A stretch of 64,000 nucleotides of DNA, taken from positions 310,001 to 374,000 of the forward strand of contig NZ_JAPDDR010000007.1 in assembly GCF_025950095.1 (NCBI RefSeq). Direction: 5' to 3'. Each line of letters starts with the position of its first letter. The first letter of the stretch is position 1. A program made the position numbers and the translations under genes. The notes under the pieces were generated by a model. The model did no database searches. It had not been told where the DNA came from and was given only the letters and a program-made list of their open reading frames with translations. Shown piece after piece: positions 55,117-62,314 of this stretch. Source of the DNA: Luteolibacter rhizosphaerae (GTDB taxonomy: Bacteria; Verrucomicrobiota; Verrucomicrobiia; Verrucomicrobiales; Akkermansiaceae).

Positions 55117-56184
55117 CTAGGCGTTGGCAGATTTAATTTCGTCAATTATATCATGTATTTCTTTTCCATTCTTTACCCCCAACGATCTGCAGACGCCGTG
55201 AATTCCTTTACCCGGAGCGTCTGGGAATCCCACCTCCTCAAGAACATCATCAATCTGAAAAGCGTGAGACAGAGGATCCGATGGGTGATCCACAACTATT
55301 CTAAATTCAATCTTGGGGATCTCCAACCTTATCCTCATATGACGCATGCAATAGACTCGCTCTCGGTGCATCTTTAAGAGCCGCGAATATATTTCATCTA
55401 TCAGGTAGCTTTCCCCCGTAGAACTTTTAAACTTACCGCTTGCTGTCTCTGAATCAATCTCGAATCGCAAGCGGACGCATTCTTTGCGGACAGTCACCGA
55501 AGTAAGACTTTCGCTATAACGATGATAAATCCTAGACTCTTCCGGAAGAATACCACTTATCATCCCGTATCGCGCCGCTCGAGTAGTATCATCAGCTAAC
55601 TCATCAGCAAACCGGAGAAGAGCCGCAAGAAATCTAGGATAAACGGTTTTACCCAAAATATGATCCTCGACGAGGATCTGACGCAAAGTGTCTTTATCTT
55701 TGGTTCCTGCAACTGTTCCACCATGAACAGCAGCTATCCGACCGATCAGTTTCTTTTCGGCCGAATCAGAACCCATTGCAGCTCCTAAAGAATCGATTTG
55801 ATCGAAAACTCGCTTTTCGTGGTCTTTTCGCCCTCCAATGTTCCCGATATCATGTAGATTAATCGCAACAAGAAGAATATAAGCCTCATATGCACCAATA
55901 TTACACTTGTGCGACTTAAGGATATCAGAACATCTGCTAATTACGCAAGCTATATGGTCTGGACCGTGATCATTCAAGTAAATCAGCTCCTCAGGATTTA
56001 TTGCATCCTTCTGGTCGAATTTTTTTCGGACCTCTGCAAGTAGCGCGCCAGCCGTAGCGTTTGTTTGTATAGGGGCAAGAATCCTCGTGATACTTTCATA
56101 ACGATTAATATACTCCTGCTTTCCTCCTCGTGTGGGGAAGTCTGCGTCTTTACCTTTTCGAAGAATCTCTTCCAAATGCATCAT
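55117..56184 (-). CDS. HD-domain phosphohydrolase of the methyltransferase cassette
   Basis: This 355-residue soluble protein has HD-superfamily metal-ligand candidates in order: His73/His77 in LNDHGPDHIA, the His111-Asp112 pair in INLHDIGN, His154 in IAAVHGGTVAG, and Asp194 in RFADELADDTTRAA. About residues 65-205 form the HD domain. The C-terminal 150 residues (VRKECVRLRFEIDSETASGK, MRIRLEIPKIEFRIVV) look beta-rich. HD enzymes hydrolyse phosphoesters such as nucleotides or nucleic acids; this could be the effector or an immune nucleotide regulator. Its ATG overlaps the methyltransferase stop as ATGA, a sign of translational coupling. Confidence 0.82.
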   Translation of the reverse strand: MMHLEEILRKGKDADFPTRGGKQEYINRYESITRILAPIQTNATAGALLAEVRKKFDQKDAINPEELIYLNDHGPDHIACVISRCSDILKSHKCNIGAYEAYILLVAINLHDIGNIGGRKDHEKRVFDQIDSLGAAMGSDSAEKKLIGRIAAVHGGTVAGTKDKDTLRQILVEDHILGKTVYPRFLAALLRFADELADDTTRAARYGMISGILPEESRIYHRYSESLTSVTVRKECVRLRFEIDSETASGKFKSSTGESYLIDEIYSRLLKMHRERVYCMRHMRIRLEIPKIEFRIVVDHPSDPLSHAFQIDDVLEEVGFPDAPGKGIHGVCRSLGVKNGKEIHDIIDEIKSANA

Positions 56185-57230
56185 GGCAGCAACAACTTGT
56201 AAATATGAGAGATTACCTCTTTAGCTAAAGCAGGAGGGACAGCATTTGCGACTTGCTGCTGTTGAAATCCAATACTACCAGAAAATTCAAACCAGTCAGG
56301 AAAAGATTGGAGGCGAGCAGCTTCTCTTACCGACAACCCTCTATTTTGGGTGGGGTGAAGCAGAACATTTTTTCTGTAGTTTCCCACTACTATCGACGGC
56401 ACGCCGGCTTTAAGGCGATGATAGAGACCCGTGTGTCGCTCTTTTGCTCGAGATTCAGCCGGCCAAAGACTATCGGGAATGCTTTCCCAATTACCTCCTT
56501 GAGGAACCCATTTAAATCGATTCACTAAGTCAGATTTATTACGCGTAACCAAGTGTCCAGCGCATTTTTTCCGCTTACCTCTTAATTTCTTTGCGTAACT
56601 ACTTGCTGCGTCTCGCCGATAAGCAAGCTCAGCATGCTGTGCACCATTTTCCAGCTTTGGAAGATCTGAGATCGCTTCCCAAACACTCACTCTTTGAGCA
56701 TGTGGTTTTGGAGGAGTTAGGTTCACAGGAACTTTCGTTCCGATCATGAACATCCGTCTACGTCTTTGGGGAACACCATAGTCGCTGGCATCTACAATCA
56801 AAGTAGAAGGGTGGTATCCCAGCTCCCGAAATGCTATCTCGATTTGTTTGTAAAAACTGCCATTTTCAGTCTGCAGGATTCCCGGTACGTTCTCTAAAAT
56901 AAGGCCGAGAGGGCGAATAAGCTCTACGAATCTAAAGTATTCTTTAAAGAGCAAAGAGTCTGGGTGTTTGGAACCTCGATTTCTTTGATTGGAGGTGGAA
57001 AATGCGCGACAAGGCGGCCCGCCTATTACAAGATCTATTTTTTGACGGGCAAATTTCTTGGCGTCTATATTTCGGATGTCAGAATTGTGAACGTCAACAT
57101 CAGGGAAGTTTGACTCGTAGGTCGTAGCCGCCCACTTGTCACTTTCCACGGCGGCAACCAACTTGCAGCCAGCTTGTTGAGCGCCAAGTGAGAGTCCACC
57201 CGCACCGGAGAATAAATCTATGACTCTCAC
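56181..57230 (-). CDS. DNA (cytosine-5) methyltransferase
   Basis: This is a complete 349-residue C5 methyltransferase. Motif I is DLFSGAGGLSLGAQQAGC and motif IV is GGPPCRAFSTS, with the nucleophile Cys74 (Arg replaces the usual Gln after it). Motif VI is LILENVPG and motif VIII is QRRRRMFMIG. A target-recognition region is followed by motif IX (GLSVREAARLQSFPDWFEF) and X (QVANAVPPALAKEV). It methylates a cytosine in an unknown DNA sequence. The start codon is GTG at 57230, just before the conserved first strand. It leads the four-gene AT-rich cassette; no restriction endonuclease gene is present. Confidence 0.93.
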   Translation of the reverse strand: MRVIDLFSGAGGLSLGAQQAGCKLVAAVESDKWAATTYESNFPDVDVHNSDIRNIDAKKFARQKIDLVIGGPPCRAFSTSNQRNRGSKHPDSLLFKEYFRFVELIRPLGLILENVPGILQTENGSFYKQIEIAFRELGYHPSTLIVDASDYGVPQRRRRMFMIGTKVPVNLTPPKPHAQRVSVWEAISDLPKLENGAQHAELAYRRDAASSYAKKLRGKRKKCAGHLVTRNKSDLVNRFKWVPQGGNWESIPDSLWPAESRAKERHTGLYHRLKAGVPSIVVGNYRKNVLLHPTQNRGLSVREAARLQSFPDWFEFSGSIGFQQQQVANAVPPALAKEVISHIYKLLLP

Positions 57231-57400: not shown

Positions 57401-60400
57401 TCACTGACACGCCTCGCACGTCCCGCCATTCATCATGGCGTCGATCGAGCAGGCCATCTTCTCCTCGGCGCTGTAGGTTGGTTTCTCGGGGCTCACGCCG
57501 CCGTCCCGTGCCATCAGGCCGCGGATCTCCTTGGTCACCTTGCCGGTGAAGGACTCGCTGTCGTTCGCCTGCAGCGTGCGCAGGTAGTAGGTCGTCTTCA
57601 GACCCTTGTCCCAGGCCCGGCGATACATGTGGCTCAGCGTCTTCATGTCCGGCGTCGCCAGGAACAGGTTCACGCTCTGGCTCTGGTCGATCCACTTCTG
57701 GCGCCGTGCCGCCGCATCCACGATGTACTCGTGGCCGATGCTGAACACCGTCTTGTGCTTGTTCTTGATCGCCGTCGGGATCGACTCGATGTCCTCTAGC
57801 TCGCCCTTGAAGTACTTCAGCTCGTCCACCATCTCCTGGTTCCACAGCCCGGCCTTCTTCAGGTCGCGCACCAGCTCGGAGTTCAGGATGATGAACTCGC
57901 CGCCCAGGTTGCTCTTCACATACAGGTTCTTGTAGTTCGGCTCGATGCACGGCGTGGTGCCCATGATGTTGGAAATCGTCGCCGTCGGCGCGATCGCCAG
58001 CACGTTCGAGTTCCGCATCCCGTGCTTCGCGATCTTCTCGCGCACCACGGACCAGTCCATCTTGCCGCCGCGCGGCACGTCGATCTTCCGGCCGCGCTCG
58101 TCTTCCAGCAGGTCCACCGTGTCCTGCGGCAGGATCCCGCGCGACCACTTGGAGCCCTGGTAGCTGGAGTAGGTCCCCACTTCCGCCGCCAGGTCGCTCG
58201 AGGCACTATAGGCATAGTAGGCGATCGCCTCCATGAACTCGTCATTGAACTCCACCGCCGCATCCGAGGCGAAGGCCAGCCCGCGCTTGTAGAGCGCGTT
58301 CTGTAGGCCCATCACGCCCAGGCCGATCGGCCGGTGGCGCATGTTCGCCGTCTTCGCCGCCGTCGTCGGGTAGAAGTTGATGTCGATCACGTTGTCCAGC
58401 GCCCGGATCGCCACCGTGATGGTCTCCTTCAGCATCTCGTGGTCCAGCGCGCCGTCGCGGGTGATGTGCGTGTCCAGGATCACCGAGCCCAGGTTGCACA
58501 CCGCCGTCTCCTCGTCGGAGGTGTTCAGCGTGATCTCCGTGCACAGGTTGCTGGAGTGGATCACGCCGGCATGGTCCTGCGGGGAGCGCACGTTGCAGGG
58601 ATCCTTGAAGGTGATCCACGGGTGCCCCGTCTCGAACAGCATCTTCAGCATCCCCTTCCACAGCTCGATCGCCGGGAATTGGCGGGACCAGATCTTCCCT
58701 TCCGCCGCCATCGCCTCGTACTCCGTGTAGCGTTGCTCGAAGGCCTTTCCATACAGGTCGTGCAGGTCCGGCACTTCGTTCGAGCGGAATAGGGTCCACT
58801 GCGCGCGGTCTTCCATCCGCTTCATGAACAGGTCCGGAATCCAGTTCGCGGTGTTCATGTCGTGGCAGCGGCGGCGCTCGTCGCCCGTGTTCTTGCGCAG
58901 CTCCAGGAAGTCCTCGATGTCGTTGTGCCAGGTCTCCAGATAGGCGCAGCCGGAACCGCGGCGCTTGCCGCCCTGGTTCACCGCCACCAGCTGGTCGTTG
59001 TGCAGCTTCAGGAAGGGGATGATCCCCTGCGATTCGCCGTTCGTGCCTTGGATGTAGCCGCCGGTGCCGCGCACCGCCGTCCACGAACCGCCCAGGCCGC
59101 CCGCCCACTTCGAGAGGAAGGCGTTCTCCGCGATCCCGCGGATCATGATGCTCTCGATCGAGTCATCCACCTTGTACAGGTAGCAGGAGGAAAGCTGGCT
59201 GTGCAGCGTGCCGGAGTTGAAGAGCGTCGGCGTGGAGGAGCAGAAGCGCCGTCCCTTGTAGAGATTGTAGAGGCGGATCACCCAGCTCTCGCGGTCCTTC
59301 TCCTCGCGCTTGAACAGGCCCATCGCCACGCGCATCCAGAAGAACTGTGGCGTCTCGATCCGGCGCGGCTTGTTGCCCGTCTTGTCGACCACCAAATAGC
59401 GGTCGTACATCGTCTGGATCCCGAGGTAGTCGAAGTCCAGGTCCGCCGTCGGGTCGAAGGCCTCCGCCAGCTTGTCCAGGTCATAGACATCCAGCAGGTC
59501 CGGGCTCAGGCGTTTGATCGCCACGCCGTGCTTCAGGTAGCTCTTGAAGGCCGCCTTGTGCGCCGCCTTCAGCTTGTCGATCCCGTCGCGCGAGATGCTC
59601 CAGTCCAGCACTTCCTCGTAGATGTAGGAGAGCAGGATCCGGCCGGCGAATTTCGCGAAGTCCGCGTCCTTCTCGATCAGCGCCTTCGCATTCAGGATGA
59701 TCGTGTTCTTGAGGTCCTTCTCGGAGATCTCCGTGCCCACGGAGCGGCGCAGCTCACGCTCGATCTCCAGCTCGCTGATGCACAGGTCGAGGCCGATCGA
59801 GGCATACGCGATCCGCTTCTTCAGCTCGCTGCCGTCCCACATGATGGACTTGCCATCATCCGGCGTCACGGTGACGAAGAATTCCTGGTTCGGATCCTCC
59901 GCCTTCTCCTCCTGCTCCTGGCGCAGGCGCGCGCGCTGCGCACGATACAGGATGTAGTGCTCCGCCGCCTTGAAGCGGCCCTGGCGCATCAGCTCCTCCT
60001 GCACCATGTCCTGCACGTCCTCGATGTGCACGAAGGACTGGTCCCCGCGGCGGATCCGGTCCGTCACCGCCTTCGCGATGTCCACCGCCGCTTCCGGGTT
60101 CTCCTTGATCGTCAGGAAGGCCTTGCGCACCGCGATCTCGATCTTCGTCTCCGACCACGGCACGACATTGCCGCTGCGGCGGATCAGGCGCACCGGCAGT
60201 GCATGCGGGCCGGCGTGGACGTCGACGGTCCCGGTCTTCTCCATCGAGCGACGGAAGGCCAGCGACTTCGCCACGTCATACGCTTCGTTCTCAAGCAGTG
60301 CCTTTTCGATCAGCAAGTATAGGTCGGACTCCGACAGGCGCAAACGGCCGCCCTCATCCAGCGACTTCGTCAGCGAGTTCGCCACCGCGTGCGCCACGTC

Positions 60401-60685
60401 CGACACGAACTTGCGGTTCACGTCCGAGAAGATCGACTTCTCGTCCGCCTGGCGGGAAATCAGCAGGTCCGCCAGCGAATCACCGATCGCATCGGCGACG
60501 TCTTCCAGCGAGAAGTGGGTATCCGTGTCACCACGGGTCACGATGATATCGGTGATCGGCTTGCGCCGCTCATGCGACAGCACCTCGCGCCAGGAAAAAG
60601 CGCGGTCGGAAGCCGGAAGGGAGAAACGGTCGGTGATGACCTGCTTCAGCAGGTAGTCTTCGTCAGGATTAACGGCACGATACAT
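57401..60685 (-). CDS. nrdA: Ribonucleoside-diphosphate reductase alpha subunit with several ATP-cone domains
   Basis: This 1094-residue catalytic subunit of class I ribonucleotide reductase reduces NDPs to dNDPs. The first 360 residues contain about three ATP-cone-like regulatory units: about 30-145; 160-255 with RSGNVVPWSETKIEIAVRKA; and 265-360 with DGSELKKRIAYASIGL. The catalytic barrel shows SSCYLYKVDDS and NLCTEITLNT (redox and active-site cysteines). The C-terminal tail CEACQ carries the cysteine pair that exchanges electrons with thioredoxin or glutaredoxin. Chlamydial NrdA (about 1040 residues) also has several ATP cones, which fits the class Ic partner nrdB upstream. A small four-helix gene separates the two. 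Confidence 0.95.
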   Translation of the reverse strand: MYRAVNPDEDYLLKQVITDRFSLPASDRAFSWREVLSHERRKPITDIIVTRGDTDTHFSLEDVADAIGDSLADLLISRQADEKSIFSDVNRKFVSDVAHAVANSLTKSLDEGGRLRLSESDLYLLIEKALLENEAYDVAKSLAFRRSMEKTGTVDVHAGPHALPVRLIRRSGNVVPWSETKIEIAVRKAFLTIKENPEAAVDIAKAVTDRIRRGDQSFVHIEDVQDMVQEELMRQGRFKAAEHYILYRAQRARLRQEQEEKAEDPNQEFFVTVTPDDGKSIMWDGSELKKRIAYASIGLDLCISELEIERELRRSVGTEISEKDLKNTIILNAKALIEKDADFAKFAGRILLSYIYEEVLDWSISRDGIDKLKAAHKAAFKSYLKHGVAIKRLSPDLLDVYDLDKLAEAFDPTADLDFDYLGIQTMYDRYLVVDKTGNKPRRIETPQFFWMRVAMGLFKREEKDRESWVIRLYNLYKGRRFCSSTPTLFNSGTLHSQLSSCYLYKVDDSIESIMIRGIAENAFLSKWAGGLGGSWTAVRGTGGYIQGTNGESQGIIPFLKLHNDQLVAVNQGGKRRGSGCAYLETWHNDIEDFLELRKNTGDERRRCHDMNTANWIPDLFMKRMEDRAQWTLFRSNEVPDLHDLYGKAFEQRYTEYEAMAAEGKIWSRQFPAIELWKGMLKMLFETGHPWITFKDPCNVRSPQDHAGVIHSSNLCTEITLNTSDEETAVCNLGSVILDTHITRDGALDHEMLKETITVAIRALDNVIDINFYPTTAAKTANMRHRPIGLGVMGLQNALYKRGLAFASDAAVEFNDEFMEAIAYYAYSASSDLAAEVGTYSSYQGSKWSRGILPQDTVDLLEDERGRKIDVPRGGKMDWSVVREKIAKHGMRNSNVLAIAPTATISNIMGTTPCIEPNYKNLYVKSNLGGEFIILNSELVRDLKKAGLWNQEMVDELKYFKGELEDIESIPTAIKNKHKTVFSIGHEYIVDAAARRQKWIDQSQSVNLFLATPDMKTLSHMYRRAWDKGLKTTYYLRTLQANDSESFTGKVTKEIRGLMARDGGVSPEKPTYSAEEKMACSIDAMMNGGTCEACQ

Positions 60686-60771
60686 GGCGAGGAAGTGTGT
60701 GCGGGTGAGGGAGGATTTGCGGAACTTGGGACAGTGTGTGTGGGAAACGGGAACTGAAGTTTGCGAGTTCG

Positions 60772-60791
60772 CAGTATTCAGTTTTCAGGAA
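60772..60791. repeat. Left inverted repeat of the four-helix element
   Basis: CAGTATTCAGTTTTCAGGAA matches the reverse complement of 61181-61200 at 19 of 20 bases (15 of 15 at the inner end). It overlaps the stop codon of the small gene at 60785. Confidence 0.85.
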
Positions 60792-61159
60792 GAGCGGCGG
60801 GAATCGATGCTGCGGATGAGCCCTTGGAGCATCGCGGAGATTTCTTTGGTCTCCTGGATCATGGGACGAGAGCCTGCGAGCGGAGCTTGCCCAACCTTCT
60901 GTCGGACTCGCTCGGAGATATAGAGTTGGGTGCGGAGTTCACCACAGGAGCCTTTGCTGATGCGGAGGAAACGAATGAAGTCTCCATCGCTGTCGCGTTC
61001 AGCTCCTTCGGCAATGTTGGAGGGCACTGAAATGGCCGAGCGCTGCATTTGATCCTTCAGCGCGTAATCGCGTGAATCATGCAACGCCACGCACACATCG
61101 ACCGCAAGCTGGCAGCTGCGCTTCCAGACTTCCAAATCTTCAAATGTGGTAACCGCCAT
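60785..61159 (-). CDS. Four-helix-bundle protein (23S rRNA intervening-sequence / S23 family)
   Basis: This 124-residue all-helical protein has the family signatures EDLEVWKRSCQLAVDVC, DQMQRSAISVPSNIAEGAER, FIRFLRISKGSCGELRTQLY and ISAMLQGLIRSI. The family forms pentameric barrels and is related to Avd of diversity-generating retroelements; its own function is unknown. The ATG at 61159 is preferred; the frame is open to 61198, into the flanking repeat. The TGA stop lies inside the left inverted repeat. Confidence 0.9.
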   Translation of the reverse strand: MAVTTFEDLEVWKRSCQLAVDVCVALHDSRDYALKDQMQRSAISVPSNIAEGAERDSDGDFIRFLRISKGSCGELRTQLYISERVRQKVGQAPLAGSRPMIQETKEISAMLQGLIRSIDSRRSS

Positions 61160-61180
61160 AATGCCTTCTGCTTTTTGCCT

Positions 61181-61200
61181 TTCCTGAAAACTGAACACTG
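61181..61200. repeat. Right inverted repeat of the four-helix element
   Basis: TTCCTGAAAACTGAACACTG is the partner of 60772-60791. The flanking base run continues with AAAACT, giving a short direct echo (ACTGAACACTGAAAACT) inside the right arm. Confidence 0.85.
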
Positions 61201-61225
61201 AAAACTAGCAAACCCGGGCCAAGGA

Positions 61226-62314
<1,089 letters not shown>

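Follow-up and report, generated by a model that had tools for sequence, protein, structure and literature searches.

The intervening sequence (IVS) of Coxiella ribosomal RNA has been called selfish; its 28-bp stem is cut by RNase III, and its mobility is listed as a hypothesis (PMC4990558; this and the other papers given by accession are cited from excerpts). Genes of the same S23 or intervening-sequence protein (IVP) family also occur in cas loci, where 18 of them were reported as CRISPR-associated (PMC3936711), and an IVP appears in a figure of CRISPR-linked genes (PMC10910872). Bacterial heptamer repeats have been described in other settings: 49 elements of four GGACCGG heptads, lying within and between genes, are predicted to be regulatory (PMC2700814), and translational roles were suggested for TAACTGA repeats (PMC4679880). 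A further class of repeats, the REPINs (doublets of repetitive extragenic palindromes, REPs), is defined in PMC3116915. The spread of S23/IVP genes and the nature of the heptamer repeats have so far been separate puzzles. The two meet in a 64,000-nucleotide stretch of Luteolibacter rhizosphaerae DNA (contig NZ_JAPDDR010000007.1, positions 310,001 to 374,000; hereafter the window), in which a gene of the IVP family PF05635 lies between nrdB and nrdA and not inside a 23S rRNA gene. It is one copy of a widespread element, consisting of a PF05635 gene between two convergent, strand-polar arrays of RG(T)NNNN heptads. The features concerned, with nrdB and nrdA being names that we assume from their sequences, are:

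60785..61159, minus strand: four-helix-bundle gene of PF05635 (23S_rRNA_IVP) / TIGR02436, 124 aa, from profile matches and predicted fold
61181..61213, minus strand: upstream heptad arm, coding strand GTTTGCT AGTTTTC AGTGTTC AGTTTTC AGGAA
60759..60791, plus strand: downstream heptad arm, an 88% inverted match to the upstream arm, containing the stop codon of the gene
61226..62314, minus strand: nrdB (ribonucleotide reductase beta), upstream neighbour, an open reading frame (ORF) with homologues in relatives and a chosen ATG start at 62314
57401..60685, minus strand: nrdA (ribonucleotide reductase alpha), downstream neighbour, an ORF with homologues in relatives

A preliminary description of this locus had reported a four-helix-bundle gene between nrdB and nrdA, with its stop codon inside the left copy of a 20-base inverted repeat matching at 19 of 20 bases, and had suggested that the whole looks like an inserted cassette of 429 bases. 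The gene, its place, its stop codon and the repeat are all as reported. However, a longer pair of 33-nt arms has the 20-base repeat as its core, and therefore the real unit measures about 455 bp. The observation was thus correct but too small, since the arms are heptad arrays (AGTTTTC AGTGTTC AGTTTTC in tandem), which had gone unrecognised. The family assignment holds as well: in a profile search the protein matches PF05635 at E 5.7e-29 (100.9 bits against a cut-off of 33.8) and TIGR02436 at 103.5 bits (cut-off 24), its match to NF008912 is also above cut-off, and at E 0.01 PF05635 is its sole Pfam match, with no match to the Y1 transposases. It likely starts at the ATG at 61159, which gives 124 residues. 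The arms at 60759-60791 and 61181-61213 are 88% complementary with 389 nt between them. When arms are scored by the best inverted match between the 200 nt upstream and the 250 nt downstream of a gene, those of the window reach 46 and the best of 100 shuffles only 22, so that the pair is not due to chance.

This arrangement is found at most PF05635 genes that we scored. The family is present in 28 of 38 genomes, with four genes in L. rhizosphaerae itself, and the profile search gave 115 matches in all; the 60 own-order loci that were scored (from 64 ORF matches, after removal of three duplicates and one locus with short flanks) are mostly the stronger ones. At a threshold of 28, arms occur at 52 of these 60 loci, compared with 12 of 520 control ORFs from the same loci, which may include ORFs overlapping the element, and 53 of the 60 beat all 100 of their shuffles. 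A set drawn from many phyla (80 loci kept of at least 581 confirmed relatives, 78 usable because L168 and L226 were too short) behaves alike, with 65 of 78 genes reaching 28 as against 9 of 250 control ORFs, here cleared of overlaps. On plasmids (12 of 20 records used, one from Riemerella and 11 cyanobacterial, of which L141 and L142 are near-copies), 11 of 12 copies beat 100 shuffles, L139 barely (32 against 31), and L145 fails. Phages gave no match at 1e-5. The period of the arms is seven: own-order arms match themselves at 0.658 when shifted by 7 nt, compared with 0.24-0.31 at lags 4-6 and 8-12, and the multi-phylum arms at 0.674 and 0.67 at lags 7 and 14. The heptad words vary from locus to locus but have a pattern in common. 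Across 86 aligned loci, position 1 is A or G (95%), position 2 G (96%), position 3 T (57%), and G is almost never found at position 6; this RG(T)NNNN pattern carries 3.97 bits of information against a maximum of 3.34 in 200 letter-shuffled trials. The gene-facing strand of the arms is rich in G and poor in C (0.35-0.38 and 0.12-0.14, respectively). In 29 of 60 elements the best match to an arm, over the arms of all other loci, is its own partner; the remaining elements have a word that is common to another locus, or a low score. Three plasmids illustrate the range of settings: on Nostoc edaphicum pNe_5 (L137) a PF05635 gene lies antisense between the nrd beta and alpha genes, which is the same gap in another phylum, and on two cyanobacterial plasmids (L140, L144) heptad-framed PF05635 genes lie between cas6 and cas4.

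We could read the nrdB-nrdA junction in 30 genomes (G001 and G004 gave no nrdB match, and G005 and G010 only pieces at contig edges; G000 is L. rhizosphaerae), and the gene is present in 10 and absent from 20. Within the genus it is present in 9 of 14 (G000, G008, G009, G011, G012, G013, G014, G015, G017) and absent from G002, G003, G006, G007 and G016, so the empty sites expected of an insertion exist. Nine of the ten nrd-site genes form one clade with the window gene just outside, a single clade of all ten not being rejected (approximately unbiased test, p-AU 0.43). Presence of the gene on the NrdB+NrdA tree requires five changes, at least three of them forced by well supported branches, a pattern that would fit one old gain followed by four losses. 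The one further carrier among the 30 genomes is G035; its nrd contig (G035:C410) groups within the genus of the window on that tree though its genome is labelled another family, and the contig may be a contaminant. The arm word at this site is GTTTTCA in the window, GTGATCA in G015, G011, G008, G009, G017 and G035, AGTAGAA/AGTAAAA in G012 and G013 and AGGAAAA in G014, and in G002, whose junction lacks the gene, reading by eye shows a hairpin of paired arms with a word unlike any of these. Within the genus, where the word differs between elements at the nrd site, and at some other sites, it differs in both arms. Arms match their true partners with a mean of 43.3, compared with 33.5 after partners were permuted among elements at orthologous sites (20,000 permutations, maximum 39.7). 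By site group, the co-change has p < 1e-4 at the nrd site, 0.005 in the GGGG group and 0.037 in the AGAC group.

Does the gene move? When two PF05635 genes belong to one subclade (at least 60% identity), they mostly share both flanks across species, whereas an nrd-site gene and a gene of another site have no common flanks. The gene is thus mostly site-bound within the genus, and not a freely jumping cassette. There are exceptions: L070-L077 and L068-L074 have no flank in common, and a few pairs that involve G031 or G036 agree on one side only. Since L068 and L074 both reside in G028, at different places and with 67% identity, the gene does sometimes duplicate or move. What is scattered is the arm. 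In the own order, arms are found as single copies or as gene-less convergent hairpins, and of the proposed mobile cassette the empty sites and the scattered repeat stand, but not the gene as the part that is dispersed. The genome of L. rhizosphaerae has two exact arm copies of 24-25 nt elsewhere, and the 21-mer TTTTCAGTGTTCAGTTTTCAG, with up to two mismatches, has 11 matches there including that of the window, against none for its reversed control. The same 21-mer is present in 20 of the 38 genomes, and the two matches of the control are both in G036. In the match counts for this 21-mer and for the TTTTCAG, GTAGCRA and AGAC words, overlapping registers of one array are counted separately. GTAGCRA, which frames the gene of L004, has 36 matches in the own genome and none for its control, and a single match, in G033, among the 10 genomes lacking a PF05635 match; over all 38 genomes the control is not clean (138 matches in G019 and 12 in G036). 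On contig C5 of G006, 12 TTTTCAG matches, among those listed, lie at about ten places on one strand, and the genome has 18 forward and one reverse. GTGATCA arrays in the window are at chance level (6 matches).

Among the matches listed, with overlapping registers removed by hand, neighbours within 600 nt are convergent in 38 cases, divergent in none and on the same strand in 6. Four of the 38 convergent pairs are gene-sized (434-465 nt), and these are at PF05635 genes. Of the 34 others we viewed 20: their loops measure 9-102 nt and show no evident resemblance in sequence, and no target duplication could be seen by eye at any of these hairpins, exact empty sites being unaligned. Such arrays differ between relatives at two loci. 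One is a gene of the own genome (L129:797-2320, G000:C2:361271-362791), presumably an allantoate-amidohydrolase-like one judging from its sequence, in which arms occur alone: it has two in-frame insertions, each combining arrays of the words TTTTCAG and GTGATCA, and a further array, of the GGATGGT word, is found at its stop codon. In the alignment of nine relatives both sites are empty in six (G012, G008, G006, G001, G013, G016), and related arrays occur in G009 and G015; in G010 the second site is empty and the first holds a GGCAGAT/GATGGTA-like hairpin (L233, G010:C173:1743-1901), a third word at that place. The other lies between thrB and purE, named from their translations, where a hairpin without a gene has the AGAC word in G000, G007, G005, G009 and G011 and GTGATCA in G008 and G015, is decayed in G003 and is a mere scrap in G006 and G012.

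What role could the protein play? The window protein is modelled with high confidence (predicted local distance difference test, pLDDT, 97.4), and its model matches the solved relatives 2gsc and 2rld, which were found by sequence (template-modelling, TM, scores of 0.84 and up to 0.83); no function is attached to either. It also resembles Avd (4dwl_C, TM 0.71, E 0.88), the accessory protein that is required for retrohoming of diversity-generating retroelements (DGRs; PMC10053308). We recognised no catalytic motif in this small bundle of the Avd/S23 fold. We tentatively lean towards the PF05635 protein being a resident partner that binds the heptads of its own word and aids the copying or homogenising of the paired arms, because of its Avd-like fold, the lack of a reverse transcriptase match in its own genome and the absence of a G:U excess in the arms (see below). 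In such a scheme the bundle protein would bind its heptads in the paired arms, either as duplex or as an extruded hairpin, and would assist host replication and repair in copying, spreading or homogenising these arms, much as in the REPIN system with its RAYT (REP-associated tyrosine transposase) but with an unrelated protein and repeat. Somewhat more tentative still is the wider proposal that PF05635 genes and RG-anchored arrays constitute a bacteria-wide selfish or commensal repeat system, whose protein, a four-helix bundle and no transposase, recognises a locus-specific word and drives the copying and concerted change of its arms.

Several results weigh against a partnership of gene and word. 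Eight of the 60 own-order genes and 13 of the 78 multi-phylum genes fall below the arm threshold. The co-change of arms fails in the GATG group (p 0.96) and is not significant in three small groups, and at the nrd site just 6 of 10 arms find their highest score with their own partner. TTTTCAG arrays occur in genomes without a PF05635 match (24 matches in G004, 16 of which are registers of one array, 19 in G006 and 12 in G033), and G019, which has no PF05635 match, is the genome with 138 matches to the reversed GTAGCRA control, itself a heptad pattern. AGAC matches extend beyond the genomes in which an AGAC-framed gene was seen (11 in G000, 18 in G008 and 11 in G007). A strict link of word and gene in each genome is therefore not upheld for AGAC and TTTTCAG. 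Moreover, since the word changes at the gene-less thrB-purE hairpin, a gene in the loop is not needed for such a change. Finally, when 444 kb, made up of the window and 19 stretches of the own genome, were scanned for 7-nt periodicity without preset words, few arrays and no clear excess at lag 7 emerged, with 4 places at a threshold of 0.8 compared with 6 at lag 6 and 4 at lag 12, and 1 compared with 0 at 0.86.

It is possible, though doubtful, that the protein is a passenger, the arrays growing by replication slippage and their mirror copies arising through template switching with fold-back in the host, with the gene no more than sheltered between them. The hairpins viewed, with their dissimilar loops and no target duplication by eye, agree with this, as do the arrays that persist in genomes without a PF05635 match and the word that varies among species at a gene-less hairpin. 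However, it leaves unexplained why the genes of one family should be framed across phyla so much more often than control ORFs, and equally the shared RG anchor and the 38:0 polarity.

Slightly less probable is an IVS-type RNA element, in which the arms are kept for the mRNA stem that they form: as in 23S rRNA intervening sequences, RNase III would cut it and so release the message of the gene, with nrdB and nrdA expression left undisturbed. The Coxiella rRNA element has the same protein family and a stem of similar length (28 bp; PMC4990558), the window element is predicted to fold as RNA with a z of -4.3, its arms closing the loop, and 8 of the 12 plasmid copies run in the same direction as the annotated neighbours displayed to either side. 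Yet mismatched positions of the arms show no preference for G:U in the coding strand (35 against 51, and 54 against 84); the test came out opposite to selection on an mRNA stem through a G:U excess, and such selection was set aside. The gene-less hairpin between the divergent thrB and purE genes, the arrays within coding sequence and the antisense copy between the nrd genes of Nostoc edaphicum are likewise at odds with an mRNA stem, and none of the 80 multi-phylum loci matches a ribosomal RNA family.

That the element is an ordinary cassette, moved in trans by a different enzyme, be it a Y1/RAYT transposase or a reverse transcriptase, is very unlikely: Y1 transposases are present in 35 of the 38 genomes and G028 has its two related copies at different places, but most subclades are site-bound, the own genome (completeness 98%) has no match to the reverse transcriptase family RVT_1, G013 has 14 PF05635 matches and no RVT_1 while G016 has 4 RVT_1 and no PF05635, and G025 has 44 TTTTCAG matches with neither Y1 nor RVT_1. 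Dependence on a reverse transcriptase was accordingly rejected for the own genome, as was a general need for a Y1 transposase, given that in G025 arrays and a PF05635 gene are accompanied by no match to Y1_Tnp or RVT_1.

Elsewhere in the window, downstream of nrdA (55117-57230), lies an ORF that we take, from reading the sequence only, to be C5-cytosine-methyltransferase-like, followed by a second ORF with a 4-base overlap.

Should gene and repeat indeed be partners, both puzzles could be tested on a single protein together with its word. If a bacteria-wide system exists, it would bring together the genes of IVSs, the S23 genes that stand alone, the copies within cas and nrd operons and the long-known heptamer repeats, and the PF05635 genes of cas loci (PMC3936711) may then be elements that came to lie in a gap between operon genes. 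Among the literature titles and abstract openings listed, which mostly leave out subscription work, nothing ties PF05635 genes to heptad repeats.

Each of the known systems resembles the window element in part. The 23S rRNA IVS with its S23/IVP gene has the same gene family and stem-forming inverted repeats around the gene, but the window element resides in a protein operon, its arms are heptad arrays that are also scattered without the gene, and arms of its type show no support for RNA-stem selection in the wobble test. DGRs have in Avd a protein of similar fold; in contrast, the own genome has no reverse transcriptase match, no search for template and variable repeats having been made. The cyanobacterial heptamers, known as short tandemly repeated repetitive (STRR) sequences, are tandem 7-mers between and within genes, as are the TAACTGA repeats of Beggiatoaceae and the GGACCGG repeats of Geobacter metallireducens. 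The latter two are read as possibly regulatory, with no PF05635-type partner gene in the excerpts of those reports, and unlike such repeats the arms described here are paired and frame PF05635 genes. The element also resembles REPIN-RAYT systems, where a resident gene is flanked by a repeat that is also scattered as single copies and as inverted pairs whose loops differ, and where words are specific to a locus or clade. In those systems the partner gene stays at its site and is inherited vertically; here most subclade pairs within the genus keep their site, with exceptions. The partner gene differs in having no Y1 transposase match, and the repeat is no palindromic REP but an array of tandem heptads.
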